The notes beneath the pieces were generated by a model, which was not told the DNA's origin, made no database searches, and was given only the letters and a program-made list of their open reading frames with translations. The translations under genes were made by a program, and so were the position numbers. 64,000 nt of DNA from Prevotella sp. (GTDB lineage Bacteria > Bacteroidota > Bacteroidia > Bacteroidales > Bacteroidaceae): the NCBI GenBank assembly GCA_022781445.1, contig JALETQ010000017.1:62001-126000 (forward strand). Reading direction: 5' to 3'. Of this stretch, positions 29,460 through 54,913 are shown in pieces. The stretch's first letter is position 1. Every line of letters begins with the position of its first letter.

Positions 29460-32400
29460 ATGAAAAGGATGAAGGACAGAAGCAGCTTCCGGATATTGAA
29501 AGCATGGATGCCCGCGGTACTTTCCGCAATCATGCTGTGGTCGTGCGGCTCGCCGGGGTCGCCCGTCTTCGATGCGCTCAACGACCGGGCATACGACTTC
29601 CGCTACCGGAACCTCGACTCCACCGAACATGCCGCCCGACAGGTGACGGACAGCCGGGAAGCGGACAAGGATGCCAAAGCCGAAGCCTTCAACCACCTTG
29701 CCTTCGTCAGCGTGGCACGCATGGACTACAACCTCGCCCGGAGGCAGTTGGACACGGTCAACATGCTTACGCGCAACCAGATAGAACTGGCGGCAGCCGA
29801 CGTGCAGCGCATGAGGATTTGCCAACGGCAGGCGCAAAACAAAGACTTCTACAACTACCGCGAACAGGCGCGGCGGCGCATGAAACGCATCGGCGAGGAA
29901 ACCGACATGCTGACGAAACGCCAGCGTCTGCGCTTCGTCTATGTCAAGTCCGAATACGAGATCGTCACTTCCACCTACTTCTATTACATCGGCCTGGAGC
30001 AGAAGTCGGCCCTTGCCCTCGCCAACATCGACGAGACGGGCGACATTCTGCAGGATACCGCCCAATATCTGAACTACCTTTACAATATGGGTGCCGGCGG
30101 AATCGTCACACAGGGCACACAGGCAGAAATCAACCAGCGCGAGTTCGATGACCTTCTGGCATGCTACCGGCTGGCAGAAGAGTGCGGCTATCCCTACTGG
30201 GAGGCCAACTCGCTGCAGGCGTTGAGCGAACACCTGCAGGAAAAGAAGGCGCGCGGGCGACTCATCCGCGACAACCTGCCCGACATCAGATTCCTCAACA
30301 CCGACAACGTGCCCGACAGCCTGCTTGCCGGAAACTTCGCCCGGCGGGCTCTCGACATCTTCCTCCGGTATGGCGACGTGTACCAGACGGCAGGTGCCTA
30401 CCGGACTCTGGCGAAGTGCTATTGGGCAATCGGCGATTATGCGGCATCGCTCGACTGCCTCTACCGCGCGCTGGAAAACCGGCTCATCGAGCGGGCACCC
30501 GACCTCGTGGCATCCATCCGCGAACAACTGAGTGTGGTCTACTCCTCCATCGACGACAAGCCGCGCAGCGACTACAACCGCAACATCTACCTCGACATGC
30601 AGGAAAAGACGCGTCAGGACCGTTATCTGGAGTCGCGAGCCGAACAACTGGACCGGTCGGTCTTCCAACTCAACGTCATGATCGGCGCCGTTCTGTTCTC
30701 GATCGTGCTGCTTGTATGCCTCCTCATCGCCTTCGTCTATCTGAGAAGACACCGCAAGAACCTGTATTCCACCGAAACTCTGCTGCAACCCCTCGAACAG
30801 TGGAAAAAGGAAAACGAACAACAGGATCTCAGACAAAGGGAAATCAACGAGGAACTCGCCGAAGAAAAGCAGCTATACAGCCTGCGGTGGGAGAAGAACA
30901 TGAAGCAACACGTCGAACAGCGTGCCAAAGTGTCGGTGGTTTACGGCATCACGCCCTTCATCGACCGCATCGTCAACGAGCTGTATCTGCTCACCACCCG
31001 TAGCGACGAAAGCAAAGAACGACGCGAGGAACGCTACCAGTACATCCTCGAACTGACCGACAACATCAACCGTCTCAACAACTTCCTGACCGACTGGATC
31101 CAACTCCGGCAAGGCAAGCTCAACCTGCAGATCGTGAGTTTCAGGCTGCAGCCGCTGTTCGACATGGTGGCCAAGAGCCGGATGGCGTTCAGGCTGAAAG
31201 GCGTAACGCTCATCGTCGAACCGACAGACGACGTTGTGAAAGCCGACCCGGTGCTGACTTTGTTCATGATCAACACCATGGCAGACAATGCCCGCAAGTT
31301 CACGCCCGACGGAGGGAAGGTCGTCATCGGCAGCCGGGCGACCGATGACTATGTAGAAATCAGCATCACCGACACCGGACGCGGTATGAACCCCGAGGAG
31401 CAGTCCAGACTCTTCACGCTCAACGTCGACGTGGCTGCCCCCCACAAGGGCGAGACGGCGGGCGACAGCGACGAAGACAAACGCGGCGGCCGCAGGCACG
31501 GCTTCGGACTGCTCAACTGCCGGGGCATCATCGAGAAGTACCGCAAGCTCAGTCCACTCTTCAACGTGTGCCTGCTCAACGTCGAAAGCAGTCCGGGCAA
31601 GGGCAGCCGCTTCTTCTTCCGCCTGCCCAAAGGTATTACGAGAACCGTCGCGGCGACTTGTCTCGTGCTGTCGCAGGCATGGACACCACTCCAAGCCGCG
31701 ACCCAACCGACGGAGAAACCGCGCTACAAGGTACAGACACGCGCCAACCGCTATGCCGACAAGGTCTACTATGCCAACATCCGCCACGAATACGAGCAGG
31801 CGTTGCTCTATTCGGACAGTGCCATCCGCGTGCTCAACGACAGCTATCGCAAACTGCAACCCGGCGGAACGGACACCCTGAGAAGCCAAGGCAGCATATC
31901 GGTCATGCCTCCCGAAATCAAATGGTTCCACAAACACCTGAAGATGGAGTACGATGCCATCCTCGACATACGCAACGAGAGTGCCGTGGCAGCACTGGCC
32001 CTGCACCGATGGGATGCCTATCGCTACCACAACAAGGTTTATACGCAGCTCTACAAGGAGATGTCTGCCGACAACACGTTGGGCCGTTACGTGCAGATCA
32101 TGCAGCGGTCGGAAGCCAACAAGAACGTCGCCATCGTGATTCTTGCCCTCATCCTGTTTGCCATTTTCCCAGCCTACTACCTGCTGTACTACCGCCACAA
32201 GGTCTATTACCGCTTCTGCTACGAACAGGTGGGCCGCATCAACGACCTTTTGCTTTCGCCCAAGTCGGCACAAGAGAAGCTCGACACCATCGGCTCCATG
32301 ACGGACGAGCGTTTCCCGACGGAACTGCGCAACGTCGTGCAGCGCATCATAGCAGCCCTGCATCGTTCCGTCCGATCGACCATGAAAATGGAAACCGATA

Positions 32401-33074
32401 CCGAATTGGCAAAAGACGAACTGCGACGCGTGAAACATGAAAACGAAAAGCTCTATGTGTCCAACAGCGTTTTGGACAACTGCCTGAGCACGCTCAAGCA
32501 CGAAACGATGTACTATCCGGCACGTATCAGGCAGATGCTCGCCGACGGCAAATACGATTTCGAGGAGATTAGGGAAGTGGCGGTCTACTATAAGGAACTC
32601 TATTCGCTGCTCGGCCTTCAGGCACGCCGTCAGCTCGAAGGCATCAGGATGGAGGTTCGACCCGTGCAACTCGCCGAGGTGGTCGGCAACAAGTATGTCG
32701 CCACTTTCGAGAACGTGAATCCGGATATCACCATTCCGGCACCTCCCGTGACACTGACCCATCTCTATGACCTGCTTCACAAGCACGGACATACGCCGAA
32801 GGCCGCTGTCACGGTGTCACCGAAAGACCGTCGTTACATCGAGTGCCGCATACATTTTGACGGCCTCCGGTTATCCGCCGGCGAGTGCATGCAGCTGTTC
32901 ACGCCAGGCAACACCGACAACCTGCCCTATATCATCTGCCGGCAGATCGTGAGAGACATCGGCGAACTGTCCAATGCGCGGGGCTGCGGCATCGTGGCCG
33001 AACCGCTTGCCGGGGGCGGTGTTGTCGTGATCATCACCCTGCCCGTATACAATCATCGAGAAATACCTGAATAA
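29460..33074 (+). CDS. Large membrane sensor protein with two histidine-kinase-like modules (DUF5112/DUF5113-like)
   Basis: Lipoprotein signal, TPR-like periplasmic region, TM (VMIGAVLFSIVLLVCLLIAFVYL), HATPase (NTMADNARKFTPDGG, DTGRGM, HGFGLLNCRGII, SSPGKGSRFFF), second hydrophobic segment, periplasmic region, TM (VAIVILALILFAIFPAYYLLYY), LKHETMYYPARIRQML and a degenerate ATPase fold. Confidence 0.8.
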   Translation: MKRMKDRSSFRILKAWMPAVLSAIMLWSCGSPGSPVFDALNDRAYDFRYRNLDSTEHAARQVTDSREADKDAKAEAFNHLAFVSVARMDYNLARRQLDTVNMLTRNQIELAAADVQRMRICQRQAQNKDFYNYREQARRRMKRIGEETDMLTKRQRLRFVYVKSEYEIVTSTYFYYIGLEQKSALALANIDETGDILQDTAQYLNYLYNMGAGGIVTQGTQAEINQREFDDLLACYRLAEECGYPYWEANSLQALSEHLQEKKARGRLIRDNLPDIRFLNTDNVPDSLLAGNFARRALDIFLRYGDVYQTAGAYRTLAKCYWAIGDYAASLDCLYRALENRLIERAPDLVASIREQLSVVYSSIDDKPRSDYNRNIYLDMQEKTRQDRYLESRAEQLDRSVFQLNVMIGAVLFSIVLLVCLLIAFVYLRRHRKNLYSTETLLQPLEQWKKENEQQDLRQREINEELAEEKQLYSLRWEKNMKQHVEQRAKVSVVYGITPFIDRIVNELYLLTTRSDESKERREERYQYILELTDNINRLNNFLTDWIQLRQGKLNLQIVSFRLQPLFDMVAKSRMAFRLKGVTLIVEPTDDVVKADPVLTLFMINTMADNARKFTPDGGKVVIGSRATDDYVEISITDTGRGMNPEEQSRLFTLNVDVAAPHKGETAGDSDEDKRGGRRHGFGLLNCRGIIEKYRKLSPLFNVCLLNVESSPGKGSRFFFRLPKGITRTVAATCLVLSQAWTPLQAATQPTEKPRYKVQTRANRYADKVYYANIRHEYEQALLYSDSAIRVLNDSYRKLQPGGTDTLRSQGSISVMPPEIKWFHKHLKMEYDAILDIRNESAVAALALHRWDAYRYHNKVYTQLYKEMSADNTLGRYVQIMQRSEANKNVAIVILALILFAIFPAYYLLYYRHKVYYRFCYEQVGRINDLLLSPKSAQEKLDTIGSMTDERFPTELRNVVQRIIAALHRSVRSTMKMETDTELAKDELRRVKHENEKLYVSNSVLDNCLSTLKHETMYYPARIRQMLADGKYDFEEIREVAVYYKELYSLLGLQARRQLEGIRMEVRPVQLAEVVGNKYVATFENVNPDITIPAPPVTLTHLYDLLHKHGHTPKAAVTVSPKDRRYIECRIHFDGLRLSAGECMQLFTPGNTDNLPYIICRQIVRDIGELSNARGCGIVAEPLAGGGVVVIITLPVYNHREIPE

Positions 33075-33077
33075 ACC

Positions 33078-33803
33078 ATGGAAAGTTTCAAAGTTATCAT
33101 CGTCGAAGACGTACCCTTGGAGTTGAAGGGAACCGAAGGAATCCTGCGTCACGACATTCCCGAAGCCGTCATCATCGGCACCGCCGACAGCGAAGCCGCC
33201 TACCGGAAGCTGATGAAAAAGGAGTTGCCCGACCTCGTTTTGCTGGATCTCGGGCTGGGAGGCTCCACCACCATCGGTGTGGAACTATGCCGACAAACCA
33301 AGGAGATGTACCCTGCCATCAAGGTGTTGATATTCACCGGAGAGATTCTCAATGAAAAATTGTGGGTCGACGTACTGGATGCCGGATGCGACGGCATCAT
33401 CCTCAAGAGCGGAGAAATGCTCACCCGCAACGACGTGGCAAGCGTGATGGTGGGCAAGCGGATGGTGTTCAACCAACCCATTCTGGAGAAGATCGTGAGT
33501 CGTTTCAAGACGCTCGTCGGCAACAGCCTCCTCAAACAGGAAGCCCTCGTGGACTACGAGATCGACGAATACGACGAGCGATTCCTGCGCCACCTCGCCT
33601 TGGGCTACACCAAGGAGCAGATCACCAACCTGCGCGGCATGCCTTTCGGGGTCAAGAGTCTGGAGAAACGGCAGAACGAGCTGGTTCAGAAACTGTTTCC
33701 CAACGGAAACGGCGGAGCGGGCATCAACGCCACGAGGCTCGTCGTGAGAGCCATCGAACTGCGAATCATCGACATCGACAATCTCGTGCCCGATGAAGAA
33801 TGA
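33078..33803 (+). CDS. Response regulator with REC domain and divergent HTH C-terminus
   Basis: VIIVEDVPLELKGTEGIL, DLVLLDLGLGG, KVLIFTG, DGIILKSG; C-term FLRHLALGYTKEQITNLRGMPFGVKSLEKRQNEL. Confidence 0.88.
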   Translation: MESFKVIIVEDVPLELKGTEGILRHDIPEAVIIGTADSEAAYRKLMKKELPDLVLLDLGLGGSTTIGVELCRQTKEMYPAIKVLIFTGEILNEKLWVDVLDAGCDGIILKSGEMLTRNDVASVMVGKRMVFNQPILEKIVSRFKTLVGNSLLKQEALVDYEIDEYDERFLRHLALGYTKEQITNLRGMPFGVKSLEKRQNELVQKLFPNGNGGAGINATRLVVRAIELRIIDIDNLVPDEE

Positions 33804-53350: not shown

Positions 53351-54913
53351 TTATTCTTCTTTGATCATCGGCAACGAAATGGTAAAGAGGGTTCCCTTGT
53401 CCCATTCGCTTTCGATCTTGATCTCACCATCATGCAAATCAATGATTTTCTTGACGTAGGCGAGTCCCAAGCCGAATCCTTTCACATCGTGAACATTGCC
53501 CGTATGTACCCTGTAGAACTTCTCAAAGACTTTCTTGAGGTTTTCTTTCTTGATGCCCATGCCATCGTCTTCGATGGAAAACATCAGCCTGTCCTTGTCA
53601 TTCCATGTACGAATCATAAGATTGATGGGCATGTCGGGCTTTTTGTATTTGATGGCATTGTCTATCAAATTGTTGATGGTATTGGTGAAATGCACCTCGT
53701 CCACGTATATTTTTGAATAGAGTGCCTCGATATCGAGTTGAATTTTTCCTCCGGTATGTTCCACTCTCAGCTTGAAAGAGTGGGCGGCGTTTTCGAGCAA
53801 TTCGTTCAGATCGAGCTCTTTTCGCTTAAAGACGGCCTTCTTGCGGTCGAACATCGACATCTGCAAAACCTTTTCGACCAGAAATCTCAAGCGTTTGGCT
53901 TCGTCTTGCACAACGCCACCGAGATGCCTCATTCGTTCGGGTGTGGTCGATATACTTTGGTCGTTGAGCATCTGAGCCGCCAGCGAAATGCTCGAAATAG
54001 GCGTCTTCAGTTCGTGCGTCATGTTGTTGATGAAGTCGTTTTTCATCTCGGTATATCGCTTCTGACGGAAGATGACGACGATGGTAAAGATGAAGGTCAC
54101 CAAGAGGATCAGCGTGAACATAATCGACGGAATCATGAATCTGACCGAAGAAAAGATATACCTGTTCATATCCGGGAAGTGGATATGCACCACTCCCATC
54201 TTATTGGGCGGGTCGTTGTGGAACAGCAATTGGCTGTAGGTATAGGCATCGCCCACCTCCTCATAGTCGGGACAGCGATACACTTCCCTGCCGTCGTGGG
54301 TTGTGACGGTGAAGTGATAGGGAATGTTGATGCCGTTGTTTACGAGTTCGGCTTTAAGATCCTGATCGAGCAATTTGAAGTTGATGCGTTCACGAAGTGA
54401 TTTATCCGAAGCCGAATAAAGGATATTCATGATGACCTCATCGAGCAAAGCCTTCTGATAAACGTAGCGATTGCGTACCATCTGCTGCATGGACTTGTTG
54501 GTTTCGGAAATCGAATTCCTGTCGTTTCTGACAATCATGGCCTTGGGCATCGTGGCAGGCCGGGTTGCAAGTGTCTTCGCCTCGAACGACGAATAGACCG
54601 CCCGTTCTTCCGGAAGACTGCCAATGTAGTGACTCGACGAACCGGTATTGACTTTAAGGCTGTCGATGTTTTTCTGTTTTCGGGTGGCAGAAGCCTGCTT
54701 GCTTTTCCTGTTCACATCGGTCTCGAGATAACGCAATGTTTCGTTAAGTTCCAGATTTCGCGAGGCTTGATAAAGCGAACGATTCACAGACTCATCGAAT
54801 TGCTCCCTCTTCATGTCTACCATCTCGTCAATGTATTTCAGCTGAAGCAGGAGCAAAGCCAGGAAAGAAACTCCCATGATGATGGCTATTGTCCAAATCG
54901 TTTTCTTCTTCAT
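53351..54913 (-). CDS. Sensor histidine kinase
   Basis: DFINNMTHELKTPISSISLAAQML; NNLIDNAIKYKK; DDGMGIKKENLKKVFEKFYRV; GFGLGLAYVKKIIDLHDGEI. Confidence 0.96.
   Translation of the reverse strand: MKKKTIWTIAIIMGVSFLALLLLQLKYIDEMVDMKREQFDESVNRSLYQASRNLELNETLRYLETDVNRKSKQASATRKQKNIDSLKVNTGSSSHYIGSLPEERAVYSSFEAKTLATRPATMPKAMIVRNDRNSISETNKSMQQMVRNRYVYQKALLDEVIMNILYSASDKSLRERINFKLLDQDLKAELVNNGINIPYHFTVTTHDGREVYRCPDYEEVGDAYTYSQLLFHNDPPNKMGVVHIHFPDMNRYIFSSVRFMIPSIMFTLILLVTFIFTIVVIFRQKRYTEMKNDFINNMTHELKTPISSISLAAQMLNDQSISTTPERMRHLGGVVQDEAKRLRFLVEKVLQMSMFDRKKAVFKRKELDLNELLENAAHSFKLRVEHTGGKIQLDIEALYSKIYVDEVHFTNTINNLIDNAIKYKKPDMPINLMIRTWNDKDRLMFSIEDDGMGIKKENLKKVFEKFYRVHTGNVHDVKGFGLGLAYVKKIIDLHDGEIKIESEWDKGTLFTISLPMIKEE

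Follow-up and report, generated by a model that had tools for sequence, protein, structure and literature searches.

A duplicated sensor-kinase gene of Bacteroidaceae encodes two complementary half-kinases joined by a signal-peptide-like segment

How can a sensor kinase signal when its phosphoacceptor and its ATP site lie in different modules? The question is raised by a gene of Prevotella sp. in the window, the whole 64,000-nucleotide stretch of DNA that was analyzed. The ORF encodes 1204 aa from an ATG start, occupies window positions 29460-33074 exactly, and comprises two homologous sensor-kinase modules, M1 and M2. The protein is a member of the DUF5112/DUF5113 Pfam families (PF17139, PF17140); both domains score above the Pfam cut-off and a DUF5932 regulator adjoins, placing the locus in the group that combines DUF5112/DUF5113 sensors with DUF5932 regulators. 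The features, in window coordinates, are as follows.

29460..29546, + strand: N-terminal lipoprotein-type signal peptide, ending at lipobox Cys29 (LWSC), from the sequence
29571..30362, + strand: M1 sensor DUF5112, aa 38-301 (Pfam, 350.3 bits)
30333..30743, + strand: TPR-like part of the M1 sensor, aa 292-428, a shortened first copy of DUF5113 leading into TM1 (aa 408-426); DUF5113 and TPR_12 matches, hydropathy
30771..31103, + strand: DHp1, aa 438-548, with an H-box lacking His (V494-Y495, codons 30939-30944); alignment, AlphaFold
31152..31631, + strand: CA1, intact ATPase, aa 565-724, with N610, D638, G640, G642 and GFGLLNC at 681-687; Pfam, alignment
31632..31697, + strand: inter-module signal-peptide-like segment, aa 725-746, with predicted cleavage LQA/A after A746; hydropathy, motif counts
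31737..32195, + strand: M2 sensor, the second copy of DUF5113, aa 760-912, including TM3 (aa 890-908); Pfam, 197.4 bits (protein), hydropathy
32319..32639, + strand: DHp2, aa 954-1060, with the putative acceptor His1014 at 32499-32501 in STLKHETMYYP; alignment, model
32661..33047, + strand: CA2, degenerate ATPase domain, aa 1068-1196, with N-box, G1 and G2 lost; profile alignment, fold
33078..33803, + strand: response regulator, a receiver (acceptor D57) with a DUF5932 output domain, the likely phosphate recipient; Pfam

Conservation was read from an alignment of 133 homologous Bacteroidaceae proteins, 20 of them from other parts of the family, with pairwise identities of 24-99% (median 49%). 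The N-terminal lipobox recurs in 116 of 130 homologue N-termini. The first DUF5113 copy, in M1, scores 69.7 bits at window positions 30483-30743.

A preliminary description of this DNA had credited M1 with an intact ATPase and an H-box without His, and both features are borne out. The N-box (N610), G1 (DTGRGM), G2 (GFGLLNC) and the C-terminal motif are all present; HATPase_c is matched at aa 603-724 with 65.4 bits against a Pfam cut-off of 26.4, and N610 and D638 are kept in 133/133 homologues. The H-box reads V494-Y495. With the alignment anchored on the conserved Pro, position 494 is V, A, I, L or M in every one of the 133 proteins and never His, and residues 488-505 are entirely free of His in 125 of them. 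Where ordinary M1-related Bacteroidales kinases carry, for example, SIIAHDLKNPF, the M1 homologues carry KISLVNSITPF. A search for another acceptor in the M1 DHp domain found no conserved His; the residue occurs at position 484 in 16/133 proteins and at 495 in 4/133.

In M2, the same description had noted an H-box-like motif followed by an ATPase-like end lacking the N-box Asn and G1. The motif, STLKHETMYYP, holds H1014, and both H1014 and E1015 are present in all 132 homologues that cover the site. It matches the S-x-x-x-H-(E/D) half of an ordinary kinase H-box and has one residue more before the Pro. The box is therefore non-canonical, with Pro at H+6 rather than H+5 and Tyr at H+4, which counts against the explanation favored below. 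In HisKA kinases, Thr or Asn at H+4 is tied to phosphatase activity, so dephosphorylation may differ in mechanism here. The ATPase-like end proves to be a genuine CA domain that has degenerated but preserves its fold. A profile alignment of M1 with M2 sets NTMADNARKF against DLLHKHGHT, DTGRGM against FDGLRL, and GFGLLNC against LPYIICR. Across the homologues, the NA motif of the N-box occurs in 131 of 133 CA1 domains and in none of the CA2 domains, and DxGxG in 133 and 3, respectively.

AlphaFold2 models were obtained for aa 396-1204 (mean pLDDT 86.7, pTM 0.62) and for the cytoplasmic part of M2 (mean pLDDT 92.9). In the M2 model, H1014 lies mid-helix in DHp alpha1 (954-1028); alpha2 (1034-1060) comes next, and then an ATPase-type fold. 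Foldseek searches of the PDB returned DivL and HK853 at the top for the long model, and LvrB, HK853 and CpxA among the best for the M2 model; by this comparison, both models have the HisKA-type DHp-CA fold. The models indicate that M2 is a real DHp-CA fold. A kinase likeness arising by chance is ruled out by the profile alignment together with the fold.

M2 might nevertheless be the decaying remnant of a duplicated kinase, its His kept just for structure or regulator docking. CA2 has lost its ATP site and is poorly conserved (mean conservation 0.27), as decay would have it. No segment of the protein is better conserved than the DHp2 helix, however (0.71, with CA1 at 0.52); the H and E of its acceptor site are invariant, and M1 alone, having no acceptor, would leave the system without output. 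We consider decay very improbable. The distribution of near-invariant positions is informative in the same respect. The whole protein has 43, of which 25 fall in CA1 (593-723) and 9 in DHp2 (1002-1044); across the 133 homologues, none falls in the DHp1 H-box and none in CA2. This pattern is expected from selection on a divided kinase, whereas simple decay of one copy would not give it. The H-box His and the ATP site, found together within one module of a HisKA kinase, are here divided between M1 and M2: one part has an ATP site and no acceptor His, the other an acceptor and no working ATPase. The presence of two complementary half-kinases in one gene is thus confirmed as real and conserved. 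Two outcomes had been named in advance as contrary to the preliminary description, an unconserved His in M2 and a conserved acceptor His elsewhere in M1. Instead, H1014 is invariant and the M1 DHp domain has no conserved acceptor His, and complementary half-kinases acting in trans are consequently the best reading.

The best explanation, and in our judgment a probable one, is a split histidine kinase in which H1014 of M2 would receive its phosphate from the M1 ATPase and hand it on to the regulator. M1 would bind ATP through CA1 without a phosphoacceptor, and M2 would offer His1014 on DHp2 without an ATP site. CA1 would phosphorylate H1014 across modules, and H1014~P would in turn supply Asp57 of the downstream receiver-DUF5932 regulator.

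The principal challenge to this transfer comes from DivL of Caulobacter crescentus (PMC4211667; PDB 4q20), which has a transmitter fold without the H-box His. DivL heads both the structural matches to the long model and the PDB sequence matches, and it has been repurposed as a sensor without kinase activity (PMC4211667). By analogy, M1 could be a regulatory pseudokinase whose transmitter has ceased to phosphorylate, and which responds to a partner or nucleotide and controls M2 allosterically. H1014 would then be phosphorylated by another kinase, or would serve only in phosphotransfer or dephosphorylation of the regulator. The genome does hold other HisKA kinases that might act on H1014, and CA1 could serve as a nucleotide sensor only, which counts against trans-phosphorylation. 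However, DivL is a poor ATP binder that can do without kinase activity (PMC4211667), whereas the ATP-site residues of M1 are invariant and the most strictly kept, which is not the signature of a His-less transmitter with a dispensable ATP site. Moreover, M1, unlike DivL, has an acceptor module fused behind it, and when a dedicated ATPase and a dedicated acceptor are joined in one protein, no outside kinase is required. A DivL-like role for M1 therefore seems unlikely.

Division of labor between an ATP half and a phosphoacceptor half is itself known. In CheA3/CheA4 of Rhodobacter sphaeroides, the two halves likewise lie on different parts and serve one regulator, and by one estimate as many as 1.7% of kinases could be both split and bifunctional (PMC3591291). 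The CheA3/CheA4 pair differs in being of the CheA type, cytoplasmic, encoded by two genes, and missing other domains. In the Prevotella protein, both halves are full HisKA-like modules that stem from a single duplicated gene, and each module carries its own periplasmic sensor. Two-transmitter proteins have also been surveyed. A 2010 survey counted two transmitters in 2 of 15704 non-hybrid kinases, most other two-transmitter proteins being hybrid kinases with receivers (PMC3018481); the likeness lies in having two transmitters per protein, but that survey describes no complementary loss. In the literature we searched, with subscription papers outside the search, we found no mention of DUF5112/DUF5113, no fused, duplicated, membrane-bound split kinase with two sensors, and no description of a signal-peptide-like junction in a split kinase. 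Split kinases being already known, the new point here is the signal-peptide character of the junction.

Split kinases consist of separate polypeptides, and here there is one ORF with a signal-peptide-like junction. The preliminary description had treated the product as one chain with a hydrophobic, signal-like segment between the modules. That segment is present, and its signal-peptide character is stronger than had been supposed. The single ORF stands, but a single chain is doubtful because the linker resembles a cleavable signal peptide in nearly all homologues. Most linkers open with a basic stretch (KGxxR or similar), run through a short core and close on an AxA-type end. Examples of such ends are SVKA/QT in L010 and AQA/AD in L121, with LQA/AT predicted after A746 in the window protein. 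A lipobox Cys ends the linker in L052, L053, L054, L088, L178 and L188, and possibly in L144. A strict [AVST]xA motif is found in 77 of 132 linkers, compared with 12 at TM1 and 13 at TM3 as controls; a second scoring, blind to the +1 residue, gives 77, 11 and 23. Most homologues thus have [AVST]xA or a lipobox at the linker, unlike at TM1 and TM3, as expected of an internal signal peptide in a polyprotein processed by signal peptidase.

These features bear on whether the linker could instead be a signal-anchor TM helix in one uncut chain, with DHp1 and DHp2 pairing within the chain or across a homodimer and the same phosphotransfer chemistry. Direct pairing is compatible with the long DHp helices, which are nearly equal in length in the AlphaFold model (aa 438-513 and 954-1028). 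The preference for Gln at +1, a position at which Bacteroidetes signal peptidase sites favor this residue (PMC5837995), is weak, at 20/130 versus about 9 per neighboring position once site choice ignores the +1 residue, and this too suits an uncut chain. On the other hand, the linker core is short and weakly hydrophobic, with a mean peak hydropathy of 1.71 versus 3.14 for TM1 and 2.77 for TM3. A mere TM helix needs neither the AxA end of most homologues nor the lipobox Cys of several. This pattern also sits in a linker that, apart from it, is the least conserved segment of the protein. We regard an uncut chain as rather doubtful, though with a sizable share of the probability. Cleavage of the precursor at the linker into two chains is predicted and seems fairly likely. 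As a general source of a separate M2, an internal start codon was rejected, a suitably placed Met being present in only 56/133 homologues.

Given the resemblance of the linker to a signal peptide, the product may be a split kinase made as a polyprotein. The precursor would probably be cut by signal peptidase I, or by signal peptidase II where a lipobox is present, and the two chains would be made 1:1 and assemble as a heteromer. The cytochrome b/c1 precursor FbcH of Bradyrhizobium is a membrane precursor whose internal signal peptide is cut to give two subunits. It resembles the present case as a bacterial membrane precursor with an internal signal peptide; it differs in that its products are respiratory subunits rather than a signalling kinase, and cleavage here is predicted. 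Each module carries a periplasmic sensor, DUF5112/TPR on M1 and DUF5113 on M2, and both may therefore influence the output. Two-input logic may follow from this arrangement; one sensor could act as a NOT or a tuning input just as well as in the AND gate that the preliminary description proposed.

The likely recipient of the phosphate is also conserved. The downstream regulator was located by tblastn, and a receiver-DUF5932 homologue lies directly downstream in 127/131 loci. In L059, L154, L161 and L190, no DUF5932-type regulator was recognized within 1.6 kb downstream, owing to divergence or relocation. Receiver residues E10, D11, D57, T87 and K110 are more than 97% conserved among 119 aligned regulators. 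By eye, DUF5932 looks like a LuxR-type helix-turn-helix.

An hhalign comparison finds M1 and M2 homologous through the module, at E 6e-12 across 370 columns. In L180, from another genus of the family, blastp of M1 against M2 after masking aligns 535 residues (E 6e-11), and in L052 and L053, from other genera, Pfam finds both DUF5113 and HATPase_c twice per protein. From these similarities we infer that a complete sensor-kinase gene was duplicated in tandem and the copies fused in frame. The system is found at E < 1e-100 in about 164 of 199 Bacteroidaceae genomes. Among the same-genus genomes sampled, 34 of 35 have a match, a few being only weak general kinase matches. In the Bacteroidaceae genera g380, g381 and g383, the only matches, if any, are weak ones to kinases in general, which suggests that the system was lost there or was never present. 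No strong full-length DUF5113 and DUF5932 matches were found outside Bacteroidaceae among 393 Bacteroidales and 396 Bacteroidota genomes. Candidates for a stand-alone or ancestral M2 outside the family were discarded: the weak DUF5113 matches inspected are TPR proteins or an ordinary kinase, and two matches to the KHE[TS]xYYP DNA pattern in another family lie in no ORF longer than 130 aa with the motif and were judged to be chance. In named genomes there are at least 589 relatives, and the 80 retained from these are nearly all labeled Prevotella, Prevotellaceae or Prevotella-split genera.

Taken as a whole, these results allow a fuller proposal, which we advance tentatively as a serious possibility. 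At a conserved internal signal peptide, signal peptidase I or II would split a signalling precursor into two half-kinases. Both would be membrane-bound and equipped with a periplasmic sensor of their own, and together they would form an obligate heteromeric histidine kinase. The gene would have been duplicated in tandem and fused in frame, and its copies would have lost catalytic residues reciprocally, before the sampled Bacteroidaceae diverged. If true, this would be a widely conserved, natural case of reciprocal subfunctionalization within a single gene, yielding a sensor kinase that is an obligate heteromer and can depend on two signals; confirmation would establish a natural sensor in which neither half works without the other. 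Bacteroidaceae are abundant in human and ruminant guts, and the system is present in most of those sampled. Trans-phosphorylation can be tested directly in it, with no need for engineered mutants, as can the integration of signals by a sensor kinase and the processing of a signalling precursor by signal peptidase.

Several smaller observations accompany these results. In L180, L052, L054, L177, L179, L182, L183 and L185, Bacteroidaceae loci outside the genus of the window, both modules are extended by a long cytoplasmic insert between TM and DHp that most Prevotella-type homologues do not have. A GAF domain in this juxtamembrane insert was considered and set aside, the match being too weak (E 0.09) and confined to the M2 insert. 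Elsewhere in the window, a HisKA-type kinase is matched at 53846-54046 on the - strand within a 536-aa frame. It is one of only four HisKA matches genome-wide, which points to an organism with few sensor kinases. In L017 (G017:C91:72082-75554), the kinase gene lies in two frames with a break near aa 195-198, reflecting either a real frameshift or a sequencing error.
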